38,412 bases of DNA from a virus: IMG/VR virus record IMGVR_UViG_3300023116_000116, positions 1 through 38,412 of that record; one strand, given 5' to 3'. The translations under genes were made by a program, and so were the position numbers. Positions 12,885 through 30,828 of this stretch are shown here, piece by piece. The notes under the pieces are model-generated. The model saw nothing but the letters and a program-made list of their open reading frames with translations. It had not been told where the DNA came from and ran no database searches. How positions within the stretch are numbered: the first letter of the stretch is position 1; every line of letters begins with the position of its first letter.

Positions 12885-15800
12885 ATGGCAATTTATGTTA
12901 ATGACAACGGCACACTTCGACAAATCTCTTTTCTTGCAGTTAACGACAACGGCACAATTAGAAGAGTTAATGAAGTTTATGTAAACGATGGGGGTTCTCT
13001 AGCAGGGCCATTTAGTACTATACATCAAACTTCTAGAAATACTGAAACAAGTAGAACTACTATTTCAGGTGTGCAAATAACTGCCTTTAACACAACTACA
13101 ACATTCGATACTGATTACTCTACTCTAACAACTTTTGATACAAGTAGAACTACAACATTTGACACTACTAGAACTACTGATACAAGTAGAACTACAACAT
13201 TTGCAACAACTACTACATATAATACTAATGTAAGTACAACAACTGCATACAATACAACAACAGCATTTACAACTACAACTACTTTTAATACAACACAGTC
13301 TACAACTACCGCATATAATACAACAACAGCGTTTACAACTACAACTACTTTTAATACAACACAGTCTACAACTACTGCATACAATACAACTACTGCGTAC
13401 ACAACAACAACTACTTATAATACTACGCAGTCTACAACTACTGCATACAATACAACAACAGCATTTGCAACAACTACTACTTTTAATACTACTCAAGGTA
13501 CGACTACTGCGTTTACAACTACAACGGCATTTAATACTACAACTACATTTAATACTACGCAGTCTACAACAACAGCTTATACAACTACAACAGCATTTAA
13601 TACTACAACTACCTTTAACACAACACAGTCTACAACAACAGCTTATACAACTACTACGGCATTTAATACTACAACTACCTTTAACACAACGCAGTCTACA
13701 ACAACAGCTTATACAACTACAACAGCATTTAATACTACAACTACTTTCTTAACAACTAGAGCAACAACAACTGCATATAATACTACAACAACTTACTTAA
13801 CAAGTAGAGCAACAACAACTGCATATAATACTACAACAACCTATACAACTTCATTTGACACAGTTATTGAGACAAGTAGAGTAACTTCATTTACAAACAA
13901 TACTACATTTGCAACAACAACAACATTTGCTACTACTACGGCTTATGTAGATAATACTGCTGTTGCAACTAACACATCTAGAAGTACCAATACAGCTCAG
14001 TCAACAGCATATAATACAAGCACAACAACTGCCTATGTAGACAATACAACAGTATCGACTAATACAGCTAGAAATACTAATACAGCTCAGTCAACAGCTT
14101 ATAATACAAGTACTACAACAGCGTATGTAGACAATACAACAGTATCGACTAATACAGCTAGAAATACTAATACTGCTCAGTCAACAGCTTATAATACAAG
14201 TACCACAACTGCATATGTAGATAATACTTCATTTGGTACTACAAGAAATACAAATACAAGTAGAACAACAGCATATGTAGATAACACAAGTTTTGGAACA
14301 ACTAGAAATACAAACACAAGTAGAACAACTGCTTATGTAGATAATACTTCATTTGGTACTACAAGAAATACAAATACAAGTAGAACAACAGCATATGTGG
14401 ATAATACCTCATTTGGTACTACAAGAAATACAAATACAAGTAGAACAACTGCATTTACAAATAATACAAGTAGAAGTACTGGATTTACAAACTCTACTGG
14501 ATTTACTAATAACACAACTAGAAGTACTAATACAAGTGCCTCTACTTCATATGACACTTTTAGAGATACAATCTATAGTACACTAGCACAGGTGCCTGGG
14601 TATAACTATTTCTTTGTTAGAGAGACAACAGTAAGTACTTCATTTGCTACAACTAGAACAACAGCATTTACAAATAATACTTCGTTTGCGACAAATACAG
14701 CTAGAAATACTAATACTTCTAGAAATACATCGTTTGCGACAAATACTTCTGCTTCTACTTCATTTACAAACTCTACTTCATATACAACTACACAAGCAAC
14801 AAATACAAGTAGAAATACTGGGTTTACAAACTCTACTTCATATACAACTACACAAGCAACAAATACAAGTAGAAATACTGGGTTTACAAACTCTACTTCG
14901 TATAATACTACACAAGCAACAAATACAAGTAGAAATACTGGGTTTACAAACTCTACTTCATATACAACTACACAAGCAACAAATACAGCTAGAAGCACTA
15001 ACACAGGCACAAGCAGAACTACAACATTTACTACATCAACAGCTTATGTAGATAATACTGCTAGAAGTACTAATACATCTAGAAGCACTAACACAGGTAC
15101 AAGTAGAACTACAACATTTACTACATCAACAGCTTACGTAGATAATACAGCTAGAAGTACTAATACATCTAGAAGTACAAATACAGGTACAAGTAGAACT
15201 ACCACATTTGCTACATCAACAGCTTATGTAGATAATACAGCTAGAAGCACTAATACTGCTCAATCTACAAATACAGGAACAAGTAGAACAACAACATTTG
15301 CTACTACTACGGCTTATGTAGATAATACTGCTGTTGCAACTAATACAGCTAGAAGTACGAATACAGCTCAATCTACAAATACAACACAATCTACAAATAC
15401 AAGTAGAACAACTACATATGAAACAGCATATTTAACTTCTAGAACTTCAAGTAGAGCAACAGGAACAAGTAGAGATACAACTACAACCTTTAACACTGCA
15501 ATATTAACAGGAACAAGTAGAGATACAACTACAACATTCAATACTTCTAGAGCTTCTTTAACATCTAGGGCAACAGGAACAAGTAGGGATACAACTACCA
15601 CATTCAATACTTCTAGAGCTTCTTTAACATCTAGAGCAACAGGTACAAGCAGAGATACAACTACAACATTCAATACTTCTAGAGCTTCTTTAACATCTAG
15701 AGCGACAGGAACAAGTAGAGATACGACTACAACATTTGCAACTACACAAGGAACAATTACAAGTAGAACAACTGGTTCTAGCAGAAATACAACTACAACC

Positions 15801-16370
15801 TTTAATACTACACAATCAACAATTACAAGTAGAACAACTGGTTCTAGCAGAAGTACAACTACAACCTTTAACACTGCAATATTAACAGGAACAGATAGAA
15901 CAACAGGTACAAGTAGAACTACAATTTCAACATTCAATACAAATAGAGCAACAGGAACAGATAGAGTAACAGGAACAAGTAGAGATACAACTTCGACATT
16001 TAATACAACTAGAGCAACAGCGTCAAGTAGAGCAACAGGTACGAGTAGAGCAACAACAAGTGTATTTTTAACTTCGAGGTCAACAGATACTTCAAGAACA
16101 ACAACTTTTGCTACTACAACAACATTTGATACAAGTAGAACTACAACATTTGCAACAGACAGAACTACTACTACCACAATTGCAACTACACGAACAACCG
16201 AAACAACGAGAACAACTGACCACTTAACAACAACAACGTTTGATACAAGTACAGTTGTATTTGAAAGAATAACCGCCACTCAGCTTGGTACAATATTTGA
16301 TACCGAAGTAGCTAGTGCAAGTGACTTTGGATTATCATTCTGGGATGGCTCATCATGGAGTGAAACATAA
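12885..16370 (+). CDS. Thr-rich low-complexity tail fibre (1161 aa)
   Basis: Residues 1-45 carry three related short repeats (IYVNDNGTLRQI, LAVNDNGTIRRV, VYVNDGGSL), probably the attachment domain. From about residue 46 to 1120 the protein is almost only Thr, Asn, Ser, Ala, Arg, Phe and Tyr, with Thr around 40% by eye, in families of tandem units: TTTAYNTTTAF-type (66 bases), AYVDNT-type (60 and 90 bases), FTNSTSYTTTQATNTSRNTG (60 bases), GTSRDTTTTFNTSRAS-type (66 bases). One unique island (FRDTIYSTLAQVPGYNYFF) interrupts it near residue 560. The C-terminus (ITATQLGTIFDTEVASASDF, then SFWDGSSW) is normal sequence and likely a distal knob. No strong ribosome binding site is visible. Probably an elongated, possibly glycosylated adhesin; function inferred. 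Confidence 0.85.
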   Translation: MAIYVNDNGTLRQISFLAVNDNGTIRRVNEVYVNDGGSLAGPFSTIHQTSRNTETSRTTISGVQITAFNTTTTFDTDYSTLTTFDTSRTTTFDTTRTTDTSRTTTFATTTTYNTNVSTTTAYNTTTAFTTTTTFNTTQSTTTAYNTTTAFTTTTTFNTTQSTTTAYNTTTAYTTTTTYNTTQSTTTAYNTTTAFATTTTFNTTQGTTTAFTTTTAFNTTTTFNTTQSTTTAYTTTTAFNTTTTFNTTQSTTTAYTTTTAFNTTTTFNTTQSTTTAYTTTTAFNTTTTFLTTRATTTAYNTTTTYLTSRATTTAYNTTTTYTTSFDTVIETSRVTSFTNNTTFATTTTFATTTAYVDNTAVATNTSRSTNTAQSTAYNTSTTTAYVDNTTVSTNTARNTNTAQSTAYNTSTTTAYVDNTTVSTNTARNTNTAQSTAYNTSTTTAYVDNTSFGTTRNTNTSRTTAYVDNTSFGTTRNTNTSRTTAYVDNTSFGTTRNTNTSRTTAYVDNTSFGTTRNTNTSRTTAFTNNTSRSTGFTNSTGFTNNTTRSTNTSASTSYDTFRDTIYSTLAQVPGYNYFFVRETTVSTSFATTRTTAFTNNTSFATNTARNTNTSRNTSFATNTSASTSFTNSTSYTTTQATNTSRNTGFTNSTSYTTTQATNTSRNTGFTNSTSYNTTQATNTSRNTGFTNSTSYTTTQATNTARSTNTGTSRTTTFTTSTAYVDNTARSTNTSRSTNTGTSRTTTFTTSTAYVDNTARSTNTSRSTNTGTSRTTTFATSTAYVDNTARSTNTAQSTNTGTSRTTTFATTTAYVDNTAVATNTARSTNTAQSTNTTQSTNTSRTTTYETAYLTSRTSSRATGTSRDTTTTFNTAILTGTSRDTTTTFNTSRASLTSRATGTSRDTTTTFNTSRASLTSRATGTSRDTTTTFNTSRASLTSRATGTSRDTTTTFATTQGTITSRTTGSSRNTTTTFNTTQSTITSRTTGSSRSTTTTFNTAILTGTDRTTGTSRTTISTFNTNRATGTDRVTGTSRDTTSTFNTTRATASSRATGTSRATTSVFLTSRSTDTSRTTTFATTTTFDTSRTTTFATDRTTTTTIATTRTTETTRTTDHLTTTTFDTSTVVFERITATQLGTIFDTEVASASDFGLSFWDGSSWSET
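13236..13763 (+). repeat. 66-base tandem repeat, eight units
   Basis: Units begin at 13236, 13302, 13368, 13434, 13500, 13566, 13632 and 13698, with exact 66-base spacing and no indels. Each starts with a variant of ACAACAACTGCATA and usually ends near CAGTCT, encoding a 22-residue TTTAYNTTTAF-TTTTTFNTTQS-type unit. Confidence 0.9.
13951..14220 (+). repeat. 90-base tandem repeat, three units
   Basis: Units start at 13951, 14041 and 14131. Units 2 and 3 are almost identical. Each encodes 30 residues beginning DNT(A/T)V and containing STNTAQSTAYNTST-like sequence. Confidence 0.9.
14221..14460 (+). repeat. 60-base tandem repeat, four units
   Basis: Four units at 14221, 14281, 14341 and 14401, in exact 60-base register, each encoding DNTSFGTTRNTNTSRTTAYV-type sequence. 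Units 1 and 3 differ at only one base (the last A/G). Confidence 0.9.
14761..15000 (+). repeat. 60-base tandem repeat, four units (second family)
   Basis: Units at 14761, 14821, 14881 and 14941 encode variants of FTNSTSYTTTQATNTSRNTG. Units differ by only a few bases, which implies recent expansion or ongoing homogenisation. Confidence 0.9.
15011..15370 (+). repeat. 90-base tandem repeat, four units
   Basis: Units start at 15011, 15101, 15191 and 15281 with AAG(C/T)AGAAC(T/A)AC. Each encodes a TSRTTTF-TTSTAYVDNTARSTNT-type 30-residue unit. The AYVDNT core links this family to the arrays at 13951 and 14221. Confidence 0.9.
15511..15708 (+). repeat. 66-base tandem repeat, three units
   Basis: Units begin at 15511, 15577 and 15643 (next partial at 15709) with GGAACAAG or GGTACAAG. 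Each encodes GTSRDTTTTFNTSRASLTSR-type sequence. Confidence 0.9.
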
Positions 16371-16534
16371 TGAAACTACAAGAAAAAGACATTACACCAA
16401 AGTATGTAAATGATAAATTAGAAAGTATGATGCATGCAGTATTCGACAGTTTAATGCAGGCAGAAGAAAGACTAAAAAGTATGGAACAACAACTATTTGA
16501 GTTAAAGCAAAATGGCAGCACCAAAACCAAGTAA
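16370..16534 (+). CDS. Small coiled-coil protein (54 aa)
   Basis: The ATG overlaps the stop of the Thr-rich fibre as TAATG, with GGAG about eight bases upstream; the stop lies 22 bases into the next gene. The product, starting MKLQEKDITPKYVNDKLESM and ending QLFELKQNGSTKTK, is highly charged and helical, with a heptad-like pattern (L-x-x-M-x-x-x-V-F-x-x-L-M-x-A-E-E-R-L). Tight overlaps on both sides argue that it is a real gene. It could be a fibre-assembly chaperone or scaffold; function unknown. Confidence 0.7.
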   Translation: MKLQEKDITPKYVNDKLESMMHAVFDSLMQAEERLKSMEQQLFELKQNGSTKTK

Positions 16535-17402
16535 GTTAGTTCCTTTATCAAAAGATGAAGAGCTAGGAAATATTCCTACTCATTTTATGAAATCTGGCTC
16601 GTCTTTAAGACCAAAAAAAGACTTGACTGATTTACAGAAATTTAAACGCAGATTACTTCCTTCTCAAATAGAAGGTTTAGATGTAGAGTATGATGTTTGG
16701 TTTAATACCAATGAATTACATACTGTACGAAAATGGTTATATACAGATTTTTTAGGCAAAGGTATATACATGCGGGTAAATTCTATAAAAATAAATAATA
16801 AGTTATTTAGAAGTATTGCGTCCTCGGACATAAAAATAGATGAAGAACGCATAGAAAACATAAAAAATAATTTACAAAATAAATATGCGTTAGGCATAAA
16901 TCAAGAGTATTATGACAATGTAATTTTTACTCCAGGAAGTAACCTGTTATGTAAAGACAAAGTTGTTCATTTTGGAAGAATGAAAGCTCTTGTGAATAAA
17001 GGTTATATAATAAAACCACATCCTATAACTGCACCAATATATATGGCAATTCTTAGAAAGCATTTTGGAAAAGAAAATGTTTTACATAAGAAAGCAGGAG
17101 GACTAGAATTATTACTTAACTGTAAAAATGTAGGCACAATGCAAAATAGTGAAATGGGACTAATTGCTTTACTACTAGGTAAAGGTTTAAGTTTAATTTC
17201 ATATACTATGGAAGAAAGAGAAAAGAATTTATTAACTTACGAATCTTTTTACTATGCTTGTGCTGGTATTGGACAAAAGGCAATGTATAAATTACTGTCT
17301 GCTAAGAACTCAGGTATAATATTTGATTTTGATAAAGACGCAGACGAAAGATTAGAAAATTATGTAAATAATTTTTGGGAGTATAAAAAAGCAGATGATT
17401 GA
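16512..17402 (+). CDS. GT-B-like glycosyltransferase, capsule-synthase-like (296 aa)
   Basis: Residues ~120-240 show a pattern like the C-terminal half of capsule polysaccharide transferases (KpsS/CDP-glycerol transferase type): GYIIKPHPIT (Lys-Pro-His-Pro), then a strand/helix pair, then VGTMQNSEMGLIALLLGKGL, which parallels the usual nucleotide-sugar-binding NS-x-x-x-E-ALLLGK segment. The first ~60 residues are a basic, disordered-looking leader (PKPSKLVPLSK, RPKKDLTDL). It overlaps the small coiled-coil gene by 23 bases and the following gene by 8 bases, so it is part of the late + strand operon. Placed right after the Thr/Ser-rich fibre, it may glycosylate virion proteins. The family call is moderate; the substrate is unknown. 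Confidence 0.5.
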   Translation: MAAPKPSKLVPLSKDEELGNIPTHFMKSGSSLRPKKDLTDLQKFKRRLLPSQIEGLDVEYDVWFNTNELHTVRKWLYTDFLGKGIYMRVNSIKINNKLFRSIASSDIKIDEERIENIKNNLQNKYALGINQEYYDNVIFTPGSNLLCKDKVVHFGRMKALVNKGYIIKPHPITAPIYMAILRKHFGKENVLHKKAGGLELLLNCKNVGTMQNSEMGLIALLLGKGLSLISYTMEEREKNLLTYESFYYACAGIGQKAMYKLLSAKNSGIIFDFDKDADERLENYVNNFWEYKKADD

Positions 17403-18321
17403 ATTAGTAATAGAATATAAAAAGACATGGAGTATGTTTACTCTTGCGTCTTTATTAGATAAAAACGAAGAATTTCGTTTGCATCTTTATGTTCGCGAAG
17501 CAGATTGGAAAGACGCTCCTATTGACTGGATTATTGATAACTTCCCAAATGTAAAAATTTATCAAGCATTTTGGACTACCAACTTTATTCCACGAGCTAT
17601 ATGCCATCTTCGTGAATTTTGGAAAAACAAAGGATTAAATAAAAGAATAGTAGTAGCTTCAGGAAACAGAGTATTTACTAGAAATAATTGGAAGAATGAA
17701 ATACCAAATCCTGACTTCTTTCAAAATAAACTTTCTCATCTAAGTCATAAAAGAGTGTTTAGGAATCATCCTAAATTTGCTAGATTTTACAGATTACTTA
17801 ATATACCTTATGATGCAGAAAACTGGAAACATGTAGACCCAGAGTTTTTTATTTTAAATTATGACCAATTAAAAAATGTAACATACAGAGATTTATTTTT
17901 TGGAGATAACAGATTTCCAAATGATATTGACCAACGAGTTTTACGAACAGGTGAAACATATTTCTTCCACCAACTTCTACAAAAAGAACACGCTTGGGTA
18001 CCTCTTTATATGAATGGTAAAAATGATGTACTTATACAGGAAGACGCGATAGAAGCTAAAGACTTAATGGATTATAATGTAATGTTAAGAAAGTCTTGGA
18101 GTATAAATGTACAACATAAATGGTTGCACTTAGAATATTGGAAAACTCCTGTAGGTATTCAATTAGCAATACCTTGGGATTTATATACAAGACAAATTGA
18201 AAATATTCCTTTAGAGTATAGAAATGCAAGAGCAAACGAAATACTATTAACGAAAGCAGAAAAGCAAAAACAACAATTTGGTAAACTATTAGAAACTGGA
18301 TTTATATTAGGAAAGATCTAG
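17395..18321 (+). CDS. Unrecognised protein next to a glycosyltransferase (308 aa)
   Basis: Starts inside the 3' end of the preceding gene (8-base overlap) and is the last gene of the + strand arm. It has alternating hydrophobic strands and helices at the N-terminus (MIELVIEYKKTWSMFTLASL, then FRLHLYVREADW, FPNVKIYQAF) like a Rossmann-type half, and many aromatic residues (Trp, Phe, Tyr). RIVVASGNRVFTRNNW near residue 85 could be a loop-binding segment. No DXD, HP or P-loop motif can be seen. It may be a divergent glycosyltransferase or a partner of the gene upstream. It converges with and overlaps the GT29-like gene by 15 bases. Confidence 0.65.
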   Translation: MIELVIEYKKTWSMFTLASLLDKNEEFRLHLYVREADWKDAPIDWIIDNFPNVKIYQAFWTTNFIPRAICHLREFWKNKGLNKRIVVASGNRVFTRNNWKNEIPNPDFFQNKLSHLSHKRVFRNHPKFARFYRLLNIPYDAENWKHVDPEFFILNYDQLKNVTYRDLFFGDNRFPNDIDQRVLRTGETYFFHQLLQKEHAWVPLYMNGKNDVLIQEDAIEAKDLMDYNVMLRKSWSINVQHKWLHLEYWKTPVGIQLAIPWDLYTRQIENIPLEYRNARANEILLTKAEKQKQQFGKLLETGFILGKI

Positions 18322-18957
18322 TAAGCCTTCATCAAGGTCAGATAAAATTTTCCAATTTAATCTACCTTCTTCAAACCACCGCATAACAGTTTCTTTTTCC
18401 TTGCTGTTATGCGGATTTTTATATACGCTGTTTATAGGCATATGCCAACTTGCAGGATAATCTGTTCCTGTCATTACAGGTATTCTTTTAGAGAAAAAGT
18501 CAAAACCAATCAAAGTAATACTTTTACATTTGCATTTATTCAAGAAAAATAATATACCAAGAAATCCTGCACTTGGTCTATCTCCTTCAGGAACTCCATT
18601 CTTTGCCCCAACTTGTTCAAAAACTTTATATAGTTCTTCGTCTGTAAATAAATTCGTATACTCAAATGGTATTTTCTTTTTTACTTCTTTATTTAAGTGA
18701 ATACGACAACGATTAAATAATTTATATGCTTTCGGAAAGAATGTATGATTTTCCATGCGAAGCCATCCAGTTATCCAAATATCTGTTCTTTTACCAATTG
18801 CATCAAAGTTCCCCCAATCTGGTATACCTCTTCCAAATCGTACAACTGTATCAAAACTATCTATGTATTTTCCATACTCATGTCGTAGAATCTCAACTGA
18901 GTTTCCCACAAGTACAATATTTTTATTTTCTGTTAGCGTCTGTAAAGTTGCATCCAT
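18307..18957 (-). CDS. GT29 sialyltransferase-like protein (216 aa)
   Basis: Shows the sialylmotif order of family GT29, which transfers sialic acid from CMP-sialic acid in known members. L-motif, residues ~14-45: IVLVGNSVEIL then YGKYIDSFDTVVRFG. S-motif, ~127-153: RPSAGFLGILFFLN then ITLIGFDFF. Near 183 a His with downstream Glu residues (PHNSKEKE) fits the VS region, though the spacing is not the textbook H-x4-E. No transmembrane anchor, unlike eukaryotic relatives. Overlaps the upstream GT8-like gene by 25 bases. The His region is encoded by the inverted repeat that forms the + strand terminator. Family call good; acceptor and whether the donor really is CMP-sialic acid are unknown. Confidence 0.7.
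   Translation of the reverse strand: MDATLQTLTENKNIVLVGNSVEILRHEYGKYIDSFDTVVRFGRGIPDWGNFDAIGKRTDIWITGWLRMENHTFFPKAYKLFNRCRIHLNKEVKKKIPFEYTNLFTDEELYKVFEQVGAKNGVPEGDRPSAGFLGILFFLNKCKCKSITLIGFDFFSKRIPVMTGTDYPASWHMPINSVYKNPHNSKEKETVMRWFEEGRLNWKILSDLDEGLLDLS
18379..18420 (+). terminator. Rho-independent-type terminator for the + strand arm, inside the antisense GT29 gene
   Basis: Perfect 11-base arms CCGCATAACAG (18379-18389) and CTGTTATGCGG (18404-18414) flank a 14-base loop and are followed by ATTTTT (18415-18420). It lies about 58 bases after the last + strand stop (18321), where a terminator for rightward transcripts is needed. On the - strand the T-run is on the wrong side, so it should act on the + strand only. 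Confidence 0.75.
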
Positions 18958-19562
18958 ATTGCTGTAAGCTCCGAGTCATCGTTTATATTTAGCCACGGTC
19001 CACCGTCTGTGTAGTGGAGGGCTTTTGGGTTTTTAAATTTGTAGTAATTTACCATGGCGTTATATTGTGCAGGAAGTTCCCCTATGCTTTCTGCCCATCT
19101 CAACTCATGCAATGCACCCGCTGGGGCTTGGTTTACATAATCAACTGTAAGTTTTTTACATTTAGAATTATTAAAAAGCATAAGACTTGACCAGTATTTT
19201 CTAGGATAACCATGGTTTTTCTTGTTTTTCATTTTCTTAGGTTTGACGAGAAAACTAGGATGTTTTACCACATGAACTGTATGTTCATCGGAAAAATAAT
19301 CCATAACTTCTTCAGGGTCACAAAGCCATAAGAAATCTCCATCACAAAAGAGAGCAGTCCCTTCGAAGTCACAGAGATGTGGTATTAAAAAACGAGTAAA
19401 GGCAAATTCCGTACTCTCCCCCTGATATGGCCGAGTGTAATCGGATATTTCCGATTTTTTGAGTGGTATGATTTCATGATTGGAATTGTAACGGACTATG
19501 CTTTTTCTACATACCTCAAACATTTCAGGATAGTCAGTTTCATAACCTATAAATATTTTCAT
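18933..19562 (-). CDS. GT8-like glycosyltransferase (209 aa)
   Basis: GT-A fold pattern: MKIFIGYETDYPEMFEVCRK at the N-terminus, RFLIPHLCDFEG, then a DXD-type metal/nucleotide-sugar motif in FCDGDFLWLCDP (residues ~92-104). A second half carries YWSSLMLFNNSKCK and YNAMVNYY, ending with HYTDGGPWLN, where the His and GGPW pattern parallels the C-terminal catalytic segment of GT8 enzymes (HFxGxxKPW type). Starts by an ATGA overlap with the UDP-sugar dehydrogenase. Likely transfers a hexose or uronic acid made by the neighbouring enzymes; substrate not readable. Length is near the short bacterial GT8 forms. Confidence 0.65.
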   Translation of the reverse strand: MKIFIGYETDYPEMFEVCRKSIVRYNSNHEIIPLKKSEISDYTRPYQGESTEFAFTRFLIPHLCDFEGTALFCDGDFLWLCDPEEVMDYFSDEHTVHVVKHPSFLVKPKKMKNKKNHGYPRKYWSSLMLFNNSKCKKLTVDYVNQAPAGALHELRWAESIGELPAQYNAMVNYYKFKNPKALHYTDGGPWLNINDDSELTAIWMQLYRR

Positions 19563-20272
19563 CGAATTTTATTATTGTATTCAGTAATATGATTTAAAAT
19601 TGACATTCCTCCAGTCATTTTTATAAATGCTTTTACATCTTTTGGAAAACAATGTCCGCCCCATCCTCTTTCTTCTGTAACTTCTGTATGACTCTCACCT
19701 ATGCGAGAATCTAATCCAGTTAGTTCTGCTACTTTTTCGTAATCTATATTAGACTTCTTACAGTAATCGTATATCTGATTAAAGAAAGAAACTTTGGTAG
19801 CAAGAAAACTATTCCTAGCGTATTTAGCAACTATTAATTCTTCTACTGTTGCTTCAACTACTTTTTTATTAAACATACTACCCCAGAATTTTACAAGACC
19901 TCCACCTATAAGTAACTCTTTTGCAACAAGTAAGTCTTGACTTGCTGTTTCTGCTCTAAGAAATTCAGGGCTATAACTTATAATTAAATCAGGAAAGTTA
20001 GCTTGTATAACTTCCCATGTACGCATATCTATTGTGCTTTTTATAAGAATAGGAACTTTAGGAGCTTCTTTTAGTACATTATAGATATTACTATAATCGC
20101 AGCTACCATCAGGCATTGATGGAGTATCAACACATATTATCAAACCATCTGTTTTAGCATCTACTTTTAAATCATTTATCTTTGGGTCTACTATTCGTAA
20201 TGCACATTTCTTTGTAAAGAAATCTTTATGTGCATTACCTACTACACCCGCCCCAGCTATTGTTAATTTCAT
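19559..20272 (-). CDS. Short UDP-glucose/GDP-mannose 6-dehydrogenase-like protein (237 aa)
   Basis: NAD-dependent oxidation of a nucleotide sugar to its uronic acid is the known family reaction. Seen: Rossmann motif GAGVVG (7-12), acidic NAD-ribose contact in IVDPK (~29), CVDTPSMPDG (48-56), YSPEFLRAE (100-108), KYARNSFLA (150-158) and catalytic Cys208 in GGHCFPKD. The protein stops at 237 residues, straight after the central dimerisation helix (HITEYNNKIR), so the C-terminal UDP-binding domain of the usual 390-450 residue enzymes is missing. The stop overlaps the GT8-like start (ATGA), so the end is natural rather than a window artefact. It may work with an altered substrate or another subunit. 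Confidence 0.75.
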   Translation of the reverse strand: MKLTIAGAGVVGNAHKDFFTKKCALRIVDPKINDLKVDAKTDGLIICVDTPSMPDGSCDYSNIYNVLKEAPKVPILIKSTIDMRTWEVIQANFPDLIISYSPEFLRAETASQDLLVAKELLIGGGLVKFWGSMFNKKVVEATVEELIVAKYARNSFLATKVSFFNQIYDYCKKSNIDYEKVAELTGLDSRIGESHTEVTEERGWGGHCFPKDVKAFIKMTGGMSILNHITEYNNKIR

Positions 20273-21633
20273 TCTATAATCCTAGGTGACGCTTCCATAC
20301 CAGAAGCATTAAAATAAGGAAGATTTTTTAATGGTGGGTTTAACACTATGCTATGATTTTCTAGTGTTTGTCCAAATGCTTTGCATAAATCTTCCGCAAG
20401 TATTTCAAAATTTTTATTTCGTAACATTTGATAGTGGTCTATTTCCCAGGTGTATTCCCCTTGAATAAACTCTAACATTTTTAATATATTATTTATTTCG
20501 TCAGTTCTTTTACCAGTATAGTTTGTAATTTTCCAACTATTATTTTCTAACTCAAACTCTGGTTCATCTTGGCCTGTTCTACTAACTCCATAATCATGAG
20601 GTGCTCCTTCTTCATACAAATCAATATCAGGTAAGTTTACTCTATGTAGTCTGCCTTGTTTTTGTAAATCAAGAGCAACTGAATTAAATGCACCCATCCA
20701 TAAATAACTTCCATAAGTCTGGCTTATAGAAGCAGTATGTCCTACAGATGCTTGATTGTATACATAAGTAGCAGGCATTTCTCTATGCCTTGCCATATTT
20801 ATATTACCTCTTACATGGGCATCTTTTAGGAGTAAGTACATATATAAATCTTCTCCCAATCCCATATGTTCAAAAGTTCTAAATCTACAAATCTTTTTAG
20901 AATACCAAGTTACTCTTGCAAAAGATTCAAAATGAATATCATCATAGAACTCATTCGCCGCTAGACAAATATTGTGGTGTTCTAAATCCCACTTTATATA
21001 TTGCTCTAACATTTTTTCTTCACTACCATATTTGGCAATTTCTTTGTTTAGACCTTTTAATGTTTCTCCACCTTTGCGTTTGCTTAAGTAGATTCTTTCT
21101 TTCATAAGACGCATTAAGCTAGGTCTATATACTTCATAATTACGATATGCTTTGAAAAAATTATAATGGTATCTTTGACCCCATATATAATTAGAACACA
21201 TCCAAGAATTATAAATACATAATGCGTCTGGCGGATTGTCTTGTTCTGCTAGTTTTTTATAAAACCAAACTCCATAAGGAGTCAAGTAATCATCACCGTC
21301 TATAGGAACACAGTAATCATCATTTGATGCTTCAAAAACATCTACTACTGCATTTTTACCTCGACCTGGTTTTCCATTTGATTTAGTAATATGGTATTCT
21401 AAACCTCTTTCTTCACACCACTTAGAACAATCAATTTCATACTGTCTACTTAATGTGTTTATTACTATGACTGCGTCTTTGTAATCTAAGTTACTCCAAC
21501 GGGGTGAAAAATGTCTGCCAAGGTCTTCAAGAGAATTTTCCTCAAAAGTCTCAAAATCAGTCTTTTGGTAAATTCCCTTGTAGTCCTCTTTAGCGGTAGT
21601 TAATATATAGAATCTAAGTTTCTTGTTCGCCAT
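20269..21633 (-). CDS. GT2-like (GT-A fold) glycosyltransferase (454 aa)
   Basis: N-terminal GT-A domain: RFYILTTAKEDY, then KDAVIVINTLSRQYEIDCSK, GRGKNAVVDVFEASNDDYCV and the metal/nucleotide-sugar motif IDGDDYLTPYG at residues 111-121. The remaining 330 residues are unusual for GT2 and include many aromatic and charged stretches (YIWGQRYHYNFFKAYRNYEV) and a Gly-rich turn near GHTASISQTYG, probably an acceptor or accessory domain. Start ATG at 21633 lies within the 3' end of the small DUF6447-like gene (20-base overlap). Likely acts in the same glycan pathway as the downstream genes. Family fairly sure; specificity unknown. Confidence 0.7.
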   Translation of the reverse strand: MANKKLRFYILTTAKEDYKGIYQKTDFETFEENSLEDLGRHFSPRWSNLDYKDAVIVINTLSRQYEIDCSKWCEERGLEYHITKSNGKPGRGKNAVVDVFEASNDDYCVPIDGDDYLTPYGVWFYKKLAEQDNPPDALCIYNSWMCSNYIWGQRYHYNFFKAYRNYEVYRPSLMRLMKERIYLSKRKGGETLKGLNKEIAKYGSEEKMLEQYIKWDLEHHNICLAANEFYDDIHFESFARVTWYSKKICRFRTFEHMGLGEDLYMYLLLKDAHVRGNINMARHREMPATYVYNQASVGHTASISQTYGSYLWMGAFNSVALDLQKQGRLHRVNLPDIDLYEEGAPHDYGVSRTGQDEPEFELENNSWKITNYTGKRTDEINNILKMLEFIQGEYTWEIDHYQMLRNKNFEILAEDLCKAFGQTLENHSIVLNPPLKNLPYFNASGMEASPRIIE

Positions 21634-22779: not shown

Positions 22780-24552
22780 TTATCCCTCGCAACTTAGACA
22801 ATCTGATTGCTCAAAAATTATCTCTCTTTTAGCCTGAGAAGTAATATTATCAGCTCTACTGATAGCTTCACTTCTTAAATAATATAATGTTTTTAAATTC
22901 TTTGCCCACGCTAACATATGGACATTATGCAAGTCGGCTTTGTTCACATCAGGTGGAAAGAATAAGTTTACACTTTGTGCCTGACAAATATATTCTTGTC
23001 TTACAGAGGCATGCTCAACAACCCATGACTGATTGATTTCAACTGCTGTTTTAAAAACATCTTTCTCCCAATCATCAAGTATATCTAAATGTTGAACACT
23101 TCCTTTATTTGCAACTATACTTCTCCATGTTTCTGTATACCCTTCATAATCTGTTCTATCTTTGATAATTTTATCCAAGAATTTATTTTTAACTAGATTA
23201 CTTCCTGTTTTTGTTTTTTGAGTATAAGCATTTGCTCTAAATGGCTCTATGCTTGGTGAAGTATTACCACAAATAATACTTGAACTAGCGTTAGGAGCAA
23301 CAGCAAGTAAATGTGCATTTCTTACTGATGCGGTATCATCGTCAGGGCACGCGCCTCTTTCGATAGCTAGTTGTCTAGTTTCTTTGTCTGCTTCTCTCTT
23401 TATTTTCTCAAACATTTCTAGATTAACACTACCTGCCATAGCACTTTCAAACGGTATACCATTCTTCTGTAAATACGCATGAAAGCCCATGGCGCCAAGT
23501 CCAATGCTTCTCTCCCTCATAGCACTAAACTTAGCTTTTTCTAATTGTTCTGGAGCGTTATCAATAAAGTACTGAAGTACATTGTCTAACATACGAATTA
23601 AATCTGGAATAAACGCTCCGTGGTTTTTCCACTCGTCAAAATATTCTAAATTAACTGAAGATAAACAACATACTGCAGTTCTTTCTTCATTCGTTGCAAG
23701 AGTTATTTCACTGCAAAGATTACTATGATGAACTCTTAAACCTTTTCTTTGTTGAAAGTCAGGCAACTCATTATTTACCGCGTCTTCAAACATAATATAA
23801 GGCTCTCCAGTTTCCATTCTATTCTGTAACAGTTTTACCCATAAAGCTCTTGCACTTACTGTTTTAACCACTCTTTTAGTGTGGGGATCGATAAGATCCC
23901 AGCTATCATCGAAATTATCAATTTTTCCAGCGTTGTGTATTCGTTCCATAAAGGCATCAGAGACAACAACACCATGGTGCAAATTAAGACACTTGCGATT
24001 ACTATCACCACCTGTAGGCTTCCGTACATCTAAGAACTCCTCTATCTCGGGGTGGTTTATGTGTAGGTAACCAGCGTATGAACCCCGTCTTGTCACACCC
24101 TGACTAAATGCTAACATTTCAGCATCTACTACTTTAATAAAAGGTATTACTCCAGTAGATTCAGACCCTTTGGATGTTCTAGTTCCAATAGAACGAACAT
24201 CAGACCAGTGTCCACCAATACCACCACCAAAACTACTTAAAAAAGCATTTTCAGTAAAGTGGTCTGTAATACCTTCTCTACTATCATCTACATAGTTTAG
24301 AAAACAACTAATTGGTAAGCCTCTTCTTGTACCACCATTAGATAGTACAGGAGTCGCAAACATAAACCATAAGTTACTGACATAGTCATATAAACGCTGT
24401 GCGTGGTCTTCGTCATCTGCAAATGTTTCTGCAGCACGAGCAAACGCTTCCTGAGGAGATGTTTCTCCAGGAATCATATATCTATCTTTGAGAGTTGCTA
24501 TTGCAAATTCATCAAGCAACTCATCTCTACTATAATCTATCTTTACTGACAT
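22780..24552 (-). CDS. nrdA: Class I ribonucleotide reductase alpha subunit
   Basis: Reduces NDPs to dNDPs for phage DNA synthesis. Seen: Cys83 in PISCFLN, catalytic triad NLCSE (Asn278, Cys280, Glu282), second active-site Cys at 295 in AVCCLSS, GSYAGYLHINHPEIEEFLDV substrate loop, tandem tyrosines in TLYYLRSEA (radical transfer) and a C-terminal CLSC (585-588) for reduction by glutaredoxin/thioredoxin. At 590 residues it is shorter than E. coli NrdA (761); the N-terminus begins directly with the catalytic region (SRDELLDEFAIATLKDRYMI), so the ATP-cone regulatory domain is absent. Overlaps the flap exonuclease gene by 23 bases. Phage-encoded glutaredoxin sits three genes upstream. Confidence 0.95.
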   Translation of the reverse strand: MSVKIDYSRDELLDEFAIATLKDRYMIPGETSPQEAFARAAETFADDEDHAQRLYDYVSNLWFMFATPVLSNGGTRRGLPISCFLNYVDDSREGITDHFTENAFLSSFGGGIGGHWSDVRSIGTRTSKGSESTGVIPFIKVVDAEMLAFSQGVTRRGSYAGYLHINHPEIEEFLDVRKPTGGDSNRKCLNLHHGVVVSDAFMERIHNAGKIDNFDDSWDLIDPHTKRVVKTVSARALWVKLLQNRMETGEPYIMFEDAVNNELPDFQQRKGLRVHHSNLCSEITLATNEERTAVCCLSSVNLEYFDEWKNHGAFIPDLIRMLDNVLQYFIDNAPEQLEKAKFSAMRERSIGLGAMGFHAYLQKNGIPFESAMAGSVNLEMFEKIKREADKETRQLAIERGACPDDDTASVRNAHLLAVAPNASSSIICGNTSPSIEPFRANAYTQKTKTGSNLVKNKFLDKIIKDRTDYEGYTETWRSIVANKGSVQHLDILDDWEKDVFKTAVEINQSWVVEHASVRQEYICQAQSVNLFFPPDVNKADLHNVHMLAWAKNLKTLYYLRSEAISRADNITSQAKREIIFEQSDCLSCEG

Positions 24553-25387
24553 AATTATCTACCAATCCTATTATTTCTTCTGCATGACCGAGAACTGCTC
24601 CGTCAACATCATATGTTAAATCCATAAGTTTTACACCTGTTTCTAGTCCTTCTACACCGAACTCATTTAAGTTCTGAATGAATTTATACTTTCCATCAAG
24701 TGGCAAACTTGCCATAATATCAAATACATCACCGTATTGTTCAATTAACTGAGTAGCACGCTTTGGTCCAACTCCGTCAACTCCTGGAACATTATCTCCT
24801 TTATCCCCTGTTAAGCACTTGTACGTTAGAAAGTACTCAGGCTCAAAGTCATAATGCTCATCCCAGTTATGCACTGTTGTTTCTTTTCTTGTAACAGTCG
24901 AAAAACGACTGATTTTATCATCGACTAGTAAATCCCAGTCTTTATCTGATGATATCAACCAAATTTCATCAACTCCTAATTCTTCTCGTTGTTGTGTAAT
25001 TAGTGCTGCTATATCATCAGCTTCTGTTCCAGCATATTTTAAAGTCAAATATCCTTTCTTATTTAGAGTATTCATAGTTGTTTGAAACTCTGCAAGAAAT
25101 TCTAAAAATTCTGCTTCTTCTTCTGCTGTTTGTTCTGCATATCGTTCTTTACGATTTGCTTTATACTCTGGATATATTTCTTTTCGATAGTTACTACCAC
25201 CATCTCCAAGTACAATAATATGTCCACAGTTATAGGACTTTGCAAGACTTTCTACTGTCCGAACATAATCATGTTCAAAGTCGTTGTTGCCTTGATGTTT
25301 CCATCGGAAAGCTAGATTGAGTCCATCAACAATCAATAAGTTCCCATTCGGGATTGGCTTTCCATGGCTCGTAAACTGTATCGCCAT
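24530..25387 (-). CDS. 5'-3' exonuclease / flap endonuclease (T4 RNase H-like)
   Basis: Removes RNA primers and 5' flaps during replication. Seen: metal ligand Asp in LLIVDGLNLAF (~20), GDGGSNYRKEIYPEYKANRK (arch and basic residues), GTEADDIAALI, SSDKDWDLLV and the helix-hairpin-helix region LTGDKGDNVPGVDGVGPKRA. All acidic clusters of the FEN/PIN-like family are present; length near the T4 and T5 enzymes. The ATG at 25387 overlaps the upstream nuclease gene by 62 bases without a clear ribosome binding site; a TTG at 25336 just before IVDGLN is an alternative, but the canonical N-terminal strand would then be bare. Supports PolA, which is encoded upstream in the same arm. Confidence 0.9.
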   Translation of the reverse strand: MAIQFTSHGKPIPNGNLLIVDGLNLAFRWKHQGNNDFEHDYVRTVESLAKSYNCGHIIVLGDGGSNYRKEIYPEYKANRKERYAEQTAEEEAEFLEFLAEFQTTMNTLNKKGYLTLKYAGTEADDIAALITQQREELGVDEIWLISSDKDWDLLVDDKISRFSTVTRKETTVHNWDEHYDFEPEYFLTYKCLTGDKGDNVPGVDGVGPKRATQLIEQYGDVFDIMASLPLDGKYKFIQNLNEFGVEGLETGVKLMDLTYDVDGAVLGHAEEIIGLVDNYVSKDRL

Positions 25388-25814
25388 TTGTAAATTTTAC
25401 CTCTTGTGTTTCTAAAAATTGTTCAGCTAAGGTAACATAACACCCTAACCAGTTTATATACATATGTTTTTTGTAAAGTGGCTTTCTTGTCGTTGCCACA
25501 TACCATTGAGAGTGGTTTTCTTTAAAGAATAGTATGGGCTCTTGTTGCATTTCTTGAGCCTGTTTTACTAGCTTTGACCACCAACCTACAAATTTATTAC
25601 TCTTTTGAGTAAATATTTTGTGATTGAAGGACATATCTCTATAGAATTTTACTTCAATAGTAAATAAATTATGTTTGTGGGCTACCATCAAATCGCCTTT
25701 GATTTTACCACTACCAGAACCAGGCGTCTGTACGAACGCCTCGCCTGTATGTCTATGTAACATTCCTGCTACTTTGATTTCTGCGTCGTTTCCTTTTCGT
25801 CTACCATTAACCAT
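25326..25814 (-). CDS. PD-(D/E)XK nuclease, Hjc-type Holliday junction resolvase-like (162 aa)
   Basis: N-terminal GRRKGNDAEIKVAGMLH with the conserved Gly and Glu, SGSGKIKGDLMVAHKH with the catalytic Asp, and FTIEVKFYR with the E-x-K of the PD-(D/E)XK core, in the order seen in archaeal-type Hjc resolvases and related endonucleases. Likely resolves branched DNA during recombination-linked replication. The ATG at 25814 overlaps the glutaredoxin stop. Next to the SbcCD-like genes and flap exonuclease, consistent with a recombination module. Could also be a different PD-(D/E)XK nuclease, since only the core can be matched by eye. Confidence 0.7.
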   Translation of the reverse strand: MVNGRRKGNDAEIKVAGMLHRHTGEAFVQTPGSGSGKIKGDLMVAHKHNLFTIEVKFYRDMSFNHKIFTQKSNKFVGWWSKLVKQAQEMQQEPILFFKENHSQWYVATTRKPLYKKHMYINWLGCYVTLAEQFLETQEVKFTNGDTVYEPWKANPEWELIDC

Positions 25815-26037
25815 TTAGCACCTTCTCGAGTTCTAAGTAACCACCTATAAGCTCGCCATCTACAAATATTTGTGGGAAGGTTCTTGCTTGTGGAAATAAC
25901 TCTCTTACATCTGCTGGTTGAAACTCTTTGCCCATTGTATTGTAAACAACTTCATGAACTGAATTATGATTCTCTGCCATCATTTTTGCTTTTGAACACG
26001 CAGGACAATTTGGTATACTATATATTTCTACTTTCAT
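25807..26037 (-). CDS. Glutaredoxin (76 aa)
   Basis: Thioredoxin-fold dithiol reductase with active site CPAC (Cys11, Cys14) after a beta strand (KVEIYSIPN), and the cis-Pro region TFPQIFVDGELIGGYLELEKV typical of glutaredoxins of the NrdH/Grx type. Expected to reduce the C-terminal Cys pair of the phage NrdA, three genes away in the same arm. Joined to the SbcC-like gene at a TAATG overlap. It is a full-length short glutaredoxin. Confidence 0.9.
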   Translation of the reverse strand: MKVEIYSIPNCPACSKAKMMAENHNSVHEVVYNTMGKEFQPADVRELFPQARTFPQIFVDGELIGGYLELEKVLNG

Positions 26038-27851
26038 TAGTCTAACCTCGATATATTATTTTCTTTTATAATTTCAATTTTTTCTAAGAGTGGGTGAGTC
26101 CAGCCATGAGAAACCAAATAAGTATTTAGATTTTCTTCTTTTAGCAGGACTTCCACTACTTTTTCTTTTCCTTGTTCATCTAGTGCTTGATTTACTTCAT
26201 CAAGAAAGAGAACATTAATTTGACTTCTACTTATTGAAGTCATCAGTTTTCTAATGGCGACTAACGTTGCAATATTTACTCTTGCTAGTTCACCTGAAGA
26301 AAGTGCAAGTATATCAATAATATTTCCATTATCAGATACTTCCACATTTAGTTTATCGTTTGTTACAACGAAATTTATACTGAATCTACCATCACTAAAC
26401 TCTGCTAAATACTCATTCGTAAGTATTTCTAGTTCTTTAACAAGGGACTCTATTTTGTATGCGAGGAGTCCGTTTGTTGAGAAAGCTTTTTTAAGTGTTT
26501 CAAGTATCGCCAGTTTGTTTTCTGAACTTTCCAGTGCATTCTCGAGTTGAGTAAGTTGCTCTTGAAATTGTCCAGTTTGCTCAAGAATAATCCCAATTCT
26601 TGTATTGTGTCTTTCTCTTTGTTCATTTTCTTCTACTACTTTTTGGATTTTATTCCTAGTTTCCAAAATCCTTGAACGAAGGTCAGCAATTTCTCTTTCA
26701 AGTTTTTCTTTGTTGATAGCTTTTGAGGGGAGGCTGTTGTCAATAGACCTGTAGAGGTTTTCCCAATCTTCGATATCTTGTTTTGCTTTCCTATGATTTT
26801 CATTATTTTCTATTACCTTTGCATATTTTTCTTGTTCTTTTCCAATTATGCTTTCGACATTTTTAACTCTGCTTTCGTGTTCTGTAAGCGACTGCCTAAC
26901 AAATGTTTGGTCAATAGACTGCTCACATGTAGGACACTCAGCGTCTTTCATTTCTGCCAACTCTTTATATTTGTCTAGCATTTTTTGCTCATGCATAAGC
27001 TCACTCTTCCAACCTCCTAAAGCAGTGAGTTGTTGGCTGGCATCTATTTTTTCTGGGTTAGCTTGCAGTAAACGTTTTGCAGAATCAATGTCAATATTTT
27101 TTAACTGTTGTTTCAGATTTTCATTCTGATTTATTTTTTTATTCTTTTCGGAGATATTTTCAAATTCTATTTGTAGAGAACGCAAAGATTCCTCGTCTTC
27201 TTCCGACTCAAATGGTAAATCCATTTTTGAAAGTATGGAAGTATCTTCGAGAATATTGTCTTCTAACCATTTCTCAATTGTTGCAATTTTGGCGTTGCTT
27301 GCTGTAATATCACTAGACGCTAGGCGTACTTCTTCTTTGAATATTTCAAAGTAAGAAACATACTCGTCAAGTTTCAACAAGTCAATTAAGAACTTTTTAC
27401 GGTTTGTATCTGTTGCAGTTAAGAACTGTAGCGATGCATTAGTATTTTGATAGACTAACTGTGAAAAAGTTTTGAAATCAATTCCAAGAACTTCTCCTAA
27501 TGTTTTGTAAGTATTAGACGCTGTGTGCGAACTAATATCTTCTCCATTTTTTGTTAGCTTACATTTGAGTGTTGCACGCCGTATAACAGTAATGTTATAT
27601 ACATCACTGTCAACAGTAAACTCGAGACTAATATCATATCCTTTGTTAACATATCTATTTGCTATATCCGCCTTTTTAACATTTTTACTATTTTTATTAA
27701 ATAGTATTTCTTCTAAAATTAATGGAATAGATGACTTACCTACTCCATTTGTACCCACTAATTGTGTAAGGGTGTCTTTTGATAAATCTATTTCATTACC
27801 TTCCCCGTATGAAAAGCAATTATCCCATTTCAACTTCTGAAGAATAATCAT
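26037..27851 (-). CDS. SbcC/Rad50-like nuclease ATPase (T4 gp46-like, 604 aa)
   Basis: ATPase subunit of a Mre11/Rad50-type nuclease for end resection and recombination-dependent replication. Seen: Walker A GTNGVGKSS (33-41), long coiled coils with a zinc hook CPTC (306-309) in the middle, ABC signature LSSGELARVNIA, Walker B VLFLDEVNQALDEQG and a switch His in LVSHGW near the C-terminus. Length and layout match T4 gp46. An AGGAG lies eight bases before the ATG at 27851, and the start overlaps the gp47-like gene by 32 bases. Works with the phosphoesterase encoded just upstream in the transcript. Confidence 0.95.
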   Translation of the reverse strand: MIILQKLKWDNCFSYGEGNEIDLSKDTLTQLVGTNGVGKSSIPLILEEILFNKNSKNVKKADIANRYVNKGYDISLEFTVDSDVYNITVIRRATLKCKLTKNGEDISSHTASNTYKTLGEVLGIDFKTFSQLVYQNTNASLQFLTATDTNRKKFLIDLLKLDEYVSYFEIFKEEVRLASSDITASNAKIATIEKWLEDNILEDTSILSKMDLPFESEEDEESLRSLQIEFENISEKNKKINQNENLKQQLKNIDIDSAKRLLQANPEKIDASQQLTALGGWKSELMHEQKMLDKYKELAEMKDAECPTCEQSIDQTFVRQSLTEHESRVKNVESIIGKEQEKYAKVIENNENHRKAKQDIEDWENLYRSIDNSLPSKAINKEKLEREIADLRSRILETRNKIQKVVEENEQRERHNTRIGIILEQTGQFQEQLTQLENALESSENKLAILETLKKAFSTNGLLAYKIESLVKELEILTNEYLAEFSDGRFSINFVVTNDKLNVEVSDNGNIIDILALSSGELARVNIATLVAIRKLMTSISRSQINVLFLDEVNQALDEQGKEKVVEVLLKEENLNTYLVSHGWTHPLLEKIEIIKENNISRLD

Positions 27852-28779
27852 TGAAAACTCCTATAATATTTTTAATTTTTTCATCATCAAAGTTAAGTAT
27901 TTCTTTTAAATACATAACTAACTCGTCAGAAATAGAAAGGTCTGATGTTAAATTTAATGTAGCGTCAATCTCTCTACGAACTACTTTTTTATCAAGTAAT
28001 TCTGAGTTCTTGACTTTAGCTAAATCTTGTACATCTCCCTCTAGTTCATAGATAGTATGATGAAATTCAGTTTGTATCATTTCATTCGGGTCTTCCACAG
28101 TCTTACGAATAAGTTGTGGTAAGTTGAATTTATGCCATGTCCAATCATTCATTTGATTAGGGTTAATTATTAGATAACCCGTTTGGACTTCGCTTCTGTG
28201 AAAAGATGTTGTCATTGGACTTCCTGGATACACAATATTTCGTTGAGTATTCTCGTGAGCATGTAAGTCTCCAGCAAATACAACATCAAACTTATCAAAT
28301 CTATCTAAATCTACTTCTGGTACTACATGAGGTGGTATTTCTCCACGAACATGAGTAAATAAAACATCTGCTTGGATGCTTTCTATTTGTTTCTTTTTAT
28401 GCAAATCCGCATAGGGAAGAATTGCCCAATTATCCTCGTAGTGTGTTTCTGTTACTACTTCTACTAGAGGATTTATACTATTTGTGGCACGAATTAAATT
28501 ACTAAAAAATGTATGATTTTTTCTAGTTGCTTCGTGGTTTCCATCATAAATAATTGTTCTTACTTTTTGTTGTTTAACAAAATCAAAGTAAAGAGTAAGT
28601 TCATCCATAGAAGGAACTCTATCAAATAAATCTCCGCCTATGATATGTAAGGAAACATTATGTTCGTCAATAGCATCTTGCACTTGTTCAAAAAACATTT
28701 GATATCTAGCACAAGCCCATGCTGTGGGGACATTTTTTTGTCCTAATTTAATATGCCAATCTGCTGTAAATAAAATCAT
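27820..28779 (-). CDS. SbcD/Mre11-like nuclease (T4 gp47-like, 319 aa)
   Basis: Calcineurin-like metallophosphoesterase, partner of the SbcC-like ATPase. Motifs in order: TADWHI (D-x-H, residues 5-8), GGDLFDR (48-54), DGNHEA (79-84), THVRGE, and GDLHAHE. These bind the two metals for DNA cleavage. A helical C-terminal part (QDLAKVKNSELLDKKV onwards) fits the Rad50-binding region. It starts with an ATGA overlap on the methyltransferase stop. Length is close to T4 gp47 (339). Confidence 0.95.
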   Translation of the reverse strand: MILFTADWHIKLGQKNVPTAWACARYQMFFEQVQDAIDEHNVSLHIIGGDLFDRVPSMDELTLYFDFVKQQKVRTIIYDGNHEATRKNHTFFSNLIRATNSINPLVEVVTETHYEDNWAILPYADLHKKKQIESIQADVLFTHVRGEIPPHVVPEVDLDRFDKFDVVFAGDLHAHENTQRNIVYPGSPMTTSFHRSEVQTGYLIINPNQMNDWTWHKFNLPQLIRKTVEDPNEMIQTEFHHTIYELEGDVQDLAKVKNSELLDKKVVRREIDATLNLTSDLSISDELVMYLKEILNFDDEKIKNIIGVFNDYSSEVEMG

Positions 28780-29276
28780 TTAATCCACCTAAGTCCATGT
28801 AATTGTTTTATGTCTGACCATATAAACCAAGCGTAATCAGTAGAGTCAGTTCCACTGCCTGTAAATGAAGGTCTTTTACTAAGTACGACCAGCCCATCAG
28901 GTGTAAATTGTTTCCAAAAATCATGTCTTGCTTGGCTTCCTAAAAAATTAATTCTTAATAACATGATTACTGTTGAAGCACACGCTATGGAGTGCTCAAT
29001 AAATTCTCTTGCAATACTAAAGGGTGGATTGGTGAGGATTAAATCTACCTCACCATCCCACTCAAAATAATCTTTGCCTTCTTGAATTTCTGTCCAAGAA
29101 GTCTTGATTCCTTTGTTTTGTAGAAAAGATACTATTCTGCCATCTCCTTTGCATGGTTCATGCGCAGTCTTAAATTGACTCCAATCAATAGGGAGTTTTT
29201 CGTAACACCACTCAGGAGTTGGATAAAAATCGTATGCGTTTCTAGGCAACGAAGTCCTCGCCTGGTTGCCATTCAC
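28776..29276 (-). CDS. DNA N6-adenine methyltransferase-like (166 aa)
   Basis: SAM-dependent methyltransferase with motif I-like AHEPCKGDGRIVSFL (residues ~39-53), an acidic VDLILTNPPFSIAREF (motif IV N-P-P-F, catalytic) and DGLVVLSKRPSFTGSG as a later motif. NPPF is diagnostic of N6-adenine (or N4-cytosine) methylases. Could protect phage DNA from host restriction. Start: GTG at 29276 overlaps the peroxiredoxin gene by 35 bases; a TTG at 29249 has a better Shine-Dalgarno (GCGAGGA, five bases upstream) and would begin at PRNAYDFYPTP. No target-recognition domain is visible, so a short solitary enzyme. Confidence 0.8.
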   Translation of the reverse strand: MNGNQARTSLPRNAYDFYPTPEWCYEKLPIDWSQFKTAHEPCKGDGRIVSFLQNKGIKTSWTEIQEGKDYFEWDGEVDLILTNPPFSIAREFIEHSIACASTVIMLLRINFLGSQARHDFWKQFTPDGLVVLSKRPSFTGSGTDSTDYAWFIWSDIKQLHGLRWIK

Positions 29277-30786: not shown

Positions 30787-30788
30787 AT

Positions 30789-30828
30789 ATTATATCAAAT
30801 TTTTAAGCGTGTGTCAAGAACTATTTTT
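30789..30828 (-). promoter_or_regulatory. Consensus sigma70-type promoter P2 (leftward)
   Basis: On the - strand: TTGACA (30817-30812), 17-base spacer, TATAAT (30794-30789), both perfect consensus. The upstream 17 bases AAAAATAGTTCTTGACA (30828-30812) are identical to those of P1, and TTTGATATAAT at the -10 is also shared. The -35 box contains the TGA stop of the upstream glycosyltransferase gene. Confidence 0.9.

Follow-up and report, generated by a model that had tools for sequence, protein, structure and literature searches.

A soluble GT29-family glycosyltransferase of a marine T5-like phage and its probable connection with Kdo

What a marine phage might do with a glycosyltransferase of family GT29, and which sugar such an enzyme would transfer, is the question raised by one minus-strand gene in the 38,412-nucleotide stretch of viral DNA analysed here (the window). 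GT29 is treated as the animal sialyltransferase family, and which donor its plant, protist and bacterial members use is not settled. The first-pass annotation described the family as best known from eukaryotes; this is true, but bacterial GT29 sialyltransferase-like proteins were described in 2018 by Petit et al. (PMC5811610), and one phage protein in UniProt (A0A6J5NLG3, uncultured Caudovirales phage) already bears the name 'Glycosyl transferase family 29', although it has 492 aa and only 21% identity to the window protein over the matched part. The proteins of Petit et al. resemble the window protein in their GT29 motifs, in lacking an anchor and an L/S cysteine pair, and in their marine Gram-negative setting; unlike it, they are chromosomal and without assigned function, and the main text of that study mentions no phage members (PMC5811610). 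Because the family name is already attached to a phage protein in that UniProt entry, the new part of our analysis is the linkage with Kdo synthesis and the cassette; a literature search within one library returned no report of a phage GT29 linked to Kdo synthesis.

The open reading frame runs on the minus strand from 18957 to 18307, fills this interval and encodes 216 aa; the plus strand at 18307-18957 is full of stops. Its 5' end shares 25 nt with the end of the upstream gene, and its 3' end shares 15 nt with a convergent gene. Two checks proposed in the first-pass annotation, a profile search and a structure prediction followed by a fold search, both bear out the assignment to GT29. The Pfam family PF00777 (Glyco_transf_29) matches the protein with a score of 31.9 bits (E 1.2e-7), the cut-off being 23, no other family reaches its own cut-off in the same Pfam scan, and the PF00777 cut-off is exceeded in 14 of 14 related records; a PHROGs search of the protein returned no family match. 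Homologues at 55-66% identity occur in many marine phage contigs, and the gene is under protein selection, since most differences between homologues fall at third codon positions (for example, 72/35/117 at positions 1/2/3). A near-identical copy at 1367-2013 of another contig (L006) contains a frame change near residues 59-70, which is either an assembly error or the sign of a disabled copy.

The AlphaFold2 model built from 66 phage sequences has a pLDDT of 91 and a pTM of 0.90; a previous one built on 12 close sequences (pLDDT 58) was discarded. When the PDB was searched with the retained model, all 30 matches at E<=1e-3 were GT29 sialyltransferases (prob 1.00, TMq 0.47-0.61), with ST6GalNAc2, ST3Gal1, ST8SiaIII and ST6Gal1 among the structures matched and 6apl as the best of them (E 1.8e-8, TM 0.58, about 15% identity), and the predicted structure has the GT29-type variant of the GT-A fold. 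The profile of the phage family matches pST3Gal1 at 2e-9 and ST8SiaIII at 1e-5. An identity with GT42 (CstI/CstII) was considered and rejected, there being no GT42 Pfam match at E<=1 and no GT42 enzyme among the 50 PDB matches listed. The protein has no N-terminal transmembrane anchor, its sequence beginning at the catalytic domain; its L motif contains no Cys, and there are no paired L/S cysteines. The animal GT29 enzymes (pST3Gal1, 2wnb; ST8SiaIII, 5bo8; ST6GalNAc2, 6apl) share with it the fold, the L and S motifs and the VS His, but are type II Golgi membrane proteins with a disulphide, a CMP-sialic acid donor, the exact motif III and an R-x-N sequence, at about 15% identity. We regard both the membership in GT29 and the soluble 216-residue form, as the first-pass annotation had claimed them, as well supported.

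The two sialylmotifs quoted in that annotation are likewise present. Motif L (residues 15-62; 18772..18915, minus strand; VLVGNSVEIL...YIDSFDTVVRFG...IGKRTDIW), located by conserved columns and by alignment to pST3Gal1 and ST8SiaIII, contains VGNSVEIL...IDSFDTVVRFG at residues 17-42 and follows the pattern VGNS...ID..D..R....G..T. Motif S (residues 127-155; 18493..18579, minus strand; RPSAGFLGILFFLNKCKCKSITLIGFDFF), quoted as RPSAGFLGILFF...LIGFDFF, was placed by conservation and by alignment to the PSTG...GF of pST3Gal1 and shows the pattern PS.G...GF. Across alignments with 5-66 phage homologues, it is the motif residues that form the invariant columns, namely V17, G18, N19, S20, D36, R40 and G55 in motif L and, across 66 phage sequences, S129, G131 and G151-F155 in motif S. 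Near the position of sialylmotif III, as judged by alignment and by the match of the phage profile to ST8SiaIII, lies PASWHMP (residues 168-174; 18436..18456, minus strand), which includes a W171-H172 pair; the exact HYYD is absent. Motif III does not define the family, because two of the three plant GT29 members also lack motifs III and VS (PMC5811610). The equivalent of motif VS is H183-N-S-K-E187 (18397..18411, minus strand), identified by conservation and alignment to ST8SiaIII: H183 and E187 are conserved at >=90% in 66 sequences, and H183 aligns, in a profile alignment, with the His of SHQLPAE, the VS motif of ST8SiaIII. The spacing is HxxxE in the window protein and HxxxxE in many relatives. 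The Asn of the animal R-x-N that follows motif L is replaced by Gly (RFG) in the window clade, and given this change donor binding may differ from that of the animal enzymes.

The GT29 gene is the last of a minus-strand cluster in the order exonuclease, nrdA, nrdB, small ORF, 454-aa protein, UDP-glucose dehydrogenase-like ORF, GT8-like DXD enzyme and GT29. The GT8-like DXD glycosyltransferase (P0004, phrog_28018; 18933..19562, minus strand), which is the gene sharing 25 nt with GT29, matches GT8 weakly in Pfam (E 0.0095) and phrog_28018 at 9e-42, and, of 67 phage GT29 clusters, 55 have a gene of its type in their loci. The short, 237-aa dehydrogenase-like ORF (19559..20272, minus strand; PF00984 at 3e-21, PF03721 at 1e-7) has its similarity chiefly in the last part of the NAD-binding domain and in the central domain, is limited to the window and its near-identical copies, and is possibly a reduced or non-canonical enzyme. 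The 454-aa protein (20269..21633, minus strand), family 8 of the neighbourhood, has a weak similarity to GT2 (E 0.038) that lies below the cut-off. Opposite GT29, on the plus strand, are a 308-aa protein, a 296-aa KPHP-motif protein and a 1161-aa repeat protein with 40% Thr. The first of these (17395..18321), convergent with GT29 across the 15-nt overlap, is a conserved neighbour in the window clade and has no significant match in Pfam or the PDB. The KPHP protein (16512..17402; phrog_26179, 6e-40) has homologues in the cassettes of other phages and is a possible GT-B glycosyltransferase; its identification as a KpsC-type Kdo transferase was rejected, KpsC being the best PDB profile match at an E of 0.26, which is not significant. 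The Thr-rich protein (12885..16370), recognised by its composition, is in the window clade the gene that follows the convergent pair; its repeats are of the TTTTF/NTTQSTTTAY type, and its conserved N- and C-terminal segments are common to the protein of another locus (L010). Distinct loci of the window clade contain a recurrent block of GT8-like, GT29, 308-aa, KPHP and Thr-rich proteins, to which a radical SAM and SDR pair, the dehydrogenase or the 454-aa gene may be added.

Elsewhere in the window, a T5-like replication set on the minus strand at 24530-38406 comprises DNA polymerase, flap exonuclease, SbcC, SbcD and helicase; the polymerase, whose ORF is cut by the window end, is 47.5% identical to that of T5, and the class I RNR is closest to those of pelagiphages. 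Judged by these genes, the window phage is a member of a marine T5-like lineage with a pelagiphage-like class I RNR. Pelagibacter was considered as a possible host, but the genes point in different directions, the RNR being nearest to pelagiphages and the polymerase nearest to T5.

Wider scans found GT29 relatives at at least 360 phage loci. Four of them (L199, L215, L227 and L237) have the gene order (cupin)-kdsB-like-kdsA-GT8-like-GT29, in which the GT8-like gene is homologous to that of the window. A second arrangement, found in a sheath-tailed phage (L298), runs Thr-rich fibre, KPHP protein, long KdsA ORF, cupin, GT29, radical SAM, SDR, GT8-like and tail sheath. Our tree joins the window clade to a sister group (support 95/90), and the kds-linked clade (95/83), which holds both kds arrangements, is sister to this pair, the whole being supported at 93/82; L173, a long branch, could not be placed. 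This locus (2852-4387) encodes an in-frame fusion of GT29 with a radical SAM domain, a 511-aa protein that lies between a KPHP protein and a GT8-like gene. Proteins of ~650 aa in L171 (8582-10540) and L205 (3779-5743) combine a GT29 domain at the C-terminus with an N-terminal stretch, GGGESLKGFDF, that by eye is DUF115/MptE-like, and in L093 and L162 a separate MptE-like gene directly follows GT29. A radical SAM/SPASM and SDR pair recurs with the GT29 cassette (L010, 4514-6005; L227, 5888-7400; L298, 10275-11712) and might act on one of the sugars in the glycan; the pair is reminiscent of radical SAM diol-dehydratase and reductase systems. The KdsA of L298 (7721-9160) has a ~215-aa C-terminal extension, which does not match the phage KdsB profile.

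Stenotrophomonas phage vB_SmaS-DLP_6 (KU682439), the only named isolate that the analysis turned up, carries a GT29 gene, AAY80_202, beside a GT8-like gene and also has a KPHP homologue; its protein differs from that of the window in being 32% identical and annotated as hypothetical, and the phage has no KdsA or CTP_transf_3 match. Single-protein viral scans yielded 0 loci with the DLP_6 query and 1 locus with a protein from a metagenome-assembled genome (MAG). The latter, the one bacterial homologue returned by a genome scan, was set aside, as it lies on a single MAG contig that also has phage-like genes (phoH-like, small endolysin-like) and is probably a phage contig. A panel of 296 Bacteroidota genomes contained no further GT29 homologue, and a plasmid search found none. 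The cyanophage S-SCSM2R (L159, a Synechococcus phage) has kdsA-kdsB next to a gene homologous to the GT8-like one of the window; there is no GT29 among the neighbours scanned, and this phage therefore supports the cassette only indirectly.

The question of the donor can be approached through the genes that accompany GT29. Among 50 GT29 phage records, a subset of the at least 360 loci, a DAHP_synth_1 (KdsA) gene is present in 12 and CTP_transf_3 in 13. NeuB was found in none of 66 GT29-bearing phage records (these 50 and 16 further ones), many of which are fragmentary, and supply by the host is possible. The KdsA of L199 exceeds both Kdo-8-phosphate synthase equivalog cut-offs (NF003543 and TIGR01362), and that of L237 exceeds NF003543 only; the KdsB-like proteins of the main phage group have their best matches to kdsB models at scores below the equivalog cut-off (88 and 64.5 vs 155). 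An unrelated huge phage (LR756500) has KdsA and KdsB above the cut-offs, with a KdsD-like isomerase, ~8 kb from its GT29; among 50,697 named phage records, KdsA (>=40% identity) is found in 4 and GT29 in 2, LR756500 having both. In the reverse direction, a scan seeded with phage KdsA alone showed GT29 at 38 of 79 newly fetched loci, mostly in two arrangements, although some of the 38 are on contigs that the search from GT29 had already yielded, which makes the two tests less than fully independent. Because KdsA is linked to GT29 in these phages, NeuB is absent and GT29 is frequent at KdsA loci, CMP-Kdo is the likely donor; from these gene associations, the enzyme family probably uses CMP-Kdo to decorate a sugar coat, of the phage or of the host, with Kdo. 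Neither the window nor any of 13 related marine records, which are fragments, contains a Kdo gene, and the window phage would therefore draw on CMP-Kdo of its host. CMP-Kdo is likely to be the donor in the window phage as well, an extension based on phylogenetic proximity and on the cassette genes held in common.

A precedent for such a donor exists in plants. According to genetic evidence published in 2024, the Kdo of rhamnogalacturonan II depends on Arabidopsis MGP2/RCKT1, which belongs to GT29 and has been proposed as an inverting CMP-beta-Kdo transferase, an activity that is putative and that the authors call hard to test in vitro (PMC11288761). It resembles the phage enzyme in family and proposed donor; it differs in being a Golgi enzyme of plant cell wall synthesis and, at 32% identity, is far closer to pST3Gal1 than the phage enzyme is (PMC11288761).

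For the catalytic activity, acceptor and biological role of the enzyme, we infer the following. The gene would appear, with fair probability, to encode a soluble cytoplasmic inverting glycosyltransferase that takes Kdo from CMP-Kdo and places it on either the Thr-rich fibre-like protein of the phage or a host surface polysaccharide. In the sister phages, the donor would be made or boosted by KdsA and the KdsB-like protein of the same operon. By analogy with solved GT29 enzymes, motifs L and S would bind CMP and H183 would be the probable catalytic base. Against CMP-Kdo as the donor stand the lack of Kdo genes in the window and its related records, the scores of the main-group KdsB-like proteins below the equivalog cut-off and the Gly in place of the R-x-N Asn; moreover, the Kdo of the cassette could be used by another glycosyltransferase, such as the KPHP protein.

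The adjacent 40%-Thr repeat protein and host lipopolysaccharide are candidates for the acceptor, the second being equally open. Kdo is a sugar of the lipopolysaccharide core. It is a serious possibility, if short of an even chance, that lipopolysaccharide or capsule of the host is modified and that the altered cell surface excludes other phages or stops progeny from re-adsorbing; modification of host lipopolysaccharide is the usual explanation of phage lipopolysaccharide genes, including the GT8-type genes of pelagimyophages (PMC7029224), and around cassettes of the kdsB-kdsA-GT8-GT29 type Thr-rich ORFs are absent over some 10 kb. The proposal of the first-pass annotation, a block of superinfection or mimicry of the host surface, is thus one of two candidate readings of the acceptor, the link to the Thr-rich fibre-like protein offering the other. 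The cassette type to which the window belongs, however, regularly has the Thr-rich protein as a neighbour: in the window clade this protein stands beside the KPHP protein, and KdsA-GT29 cassettes on a sheath-tailed backbone have it again. That this protein is itself the acceptor and becomes a mucin-like glycosylated appendage is a suggestion we make tentatively. In its favour, a repeat protein with 40% Thr lies beside glycosyltransferases in both T5-like phages and a sheath-tailed phage, and among KdsA-seeded loci Thr-rich ORFs occur only together with GT29 (10 of 38 vs 0 of 41, p 3e-4), a p-value that overstates the evidence, as the ten are close relatives and represent fewer independent events. 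On the other hand, fibre genes and glycosyltransferases both collect in host-recognition regions, and the Thr-rich gene is missing from some GT29 operons. We speculate, while considering it rather unlikely as a whole, that a mobile cassette of unrelated marine phages makes CMP-Kdo and uses GT29, the GT8-like enzyme and the KPHP protein to coat the phage's own Thr-rich repeat fibre with a Kdo-bearing glycan.

CMP-Kdo as donor must also be weighed against other sugars. The first-pass annotation proposed a nonulosonic acid-like sugar, which is probably wrong: a transfer to a surface glycan of sialic, legionaminic or pseudaminic acid, with a CMP-sugar of the host as the source, is unlikely in view of the 0/66 count for NeuB and of the KdsA and KdsB-like genes found instead, in the same operon, in sister clades, even though the characterised animal GT29 enzymes use CMP-sialic acid (PMC5811610), the fold matches are sialyltransferases and the donor could come from the host. 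Decidedly unlikely is a GT29 scaffold re-used for a UDP-sugar, for example UDP-glucuronate from the adjoining dehydrogenase-like ORF. An Arabidopsis GT29 paralogue bears the name GALT29A (PMC11288761), the R-x-N of animal enzymes is RFG in the window clade, and the dehydrogenase-like ORF is adjacent in the window phage, but this ORF is short and confined to the window and near-identical copies, motifs L and S and the VS His are retained, and kds genes accompany close relatives. Phage glycosyltransferases can act on DNA, as in T4, but a role of GT29 in glycosylating modified phage DNA bases is very improbable, the cassette being tied to tail and fibre genes and to Kdo synthesis, and the window genes scanned, which leave several small ORFs outside the scan, including no base-hydroxylating enzyme.

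With CMP-Kdo as the probable donor, the phage enzymes offer an advantage for the study of the family: they are short and anchor-free, and sister phages supply KdsA and KdsB-like partners, which makes the donor question testable in E. coli. If the Thr-rich fibre link is true, it would provide a concrete case of virion glycosylation, and the full cassette as we speculate on it would mean a phage appendage resembling mucin, with an ulosonic acid as its cap, as well as the occurrence in a prokaryotic system of an inverting Kdo transferase belonging to GT29. GT30 is listed as the one known inverting family of Kdo transferases (PMC9587256). If Kdo is confirmed as the sugar transferred by the phage enzymes, GT29 would be, beside GT30, a further inverting family that transfers Kdo, and this would support the notion that the donor of ancestral GT29 was not sialic acid but a different ulosonic acid.
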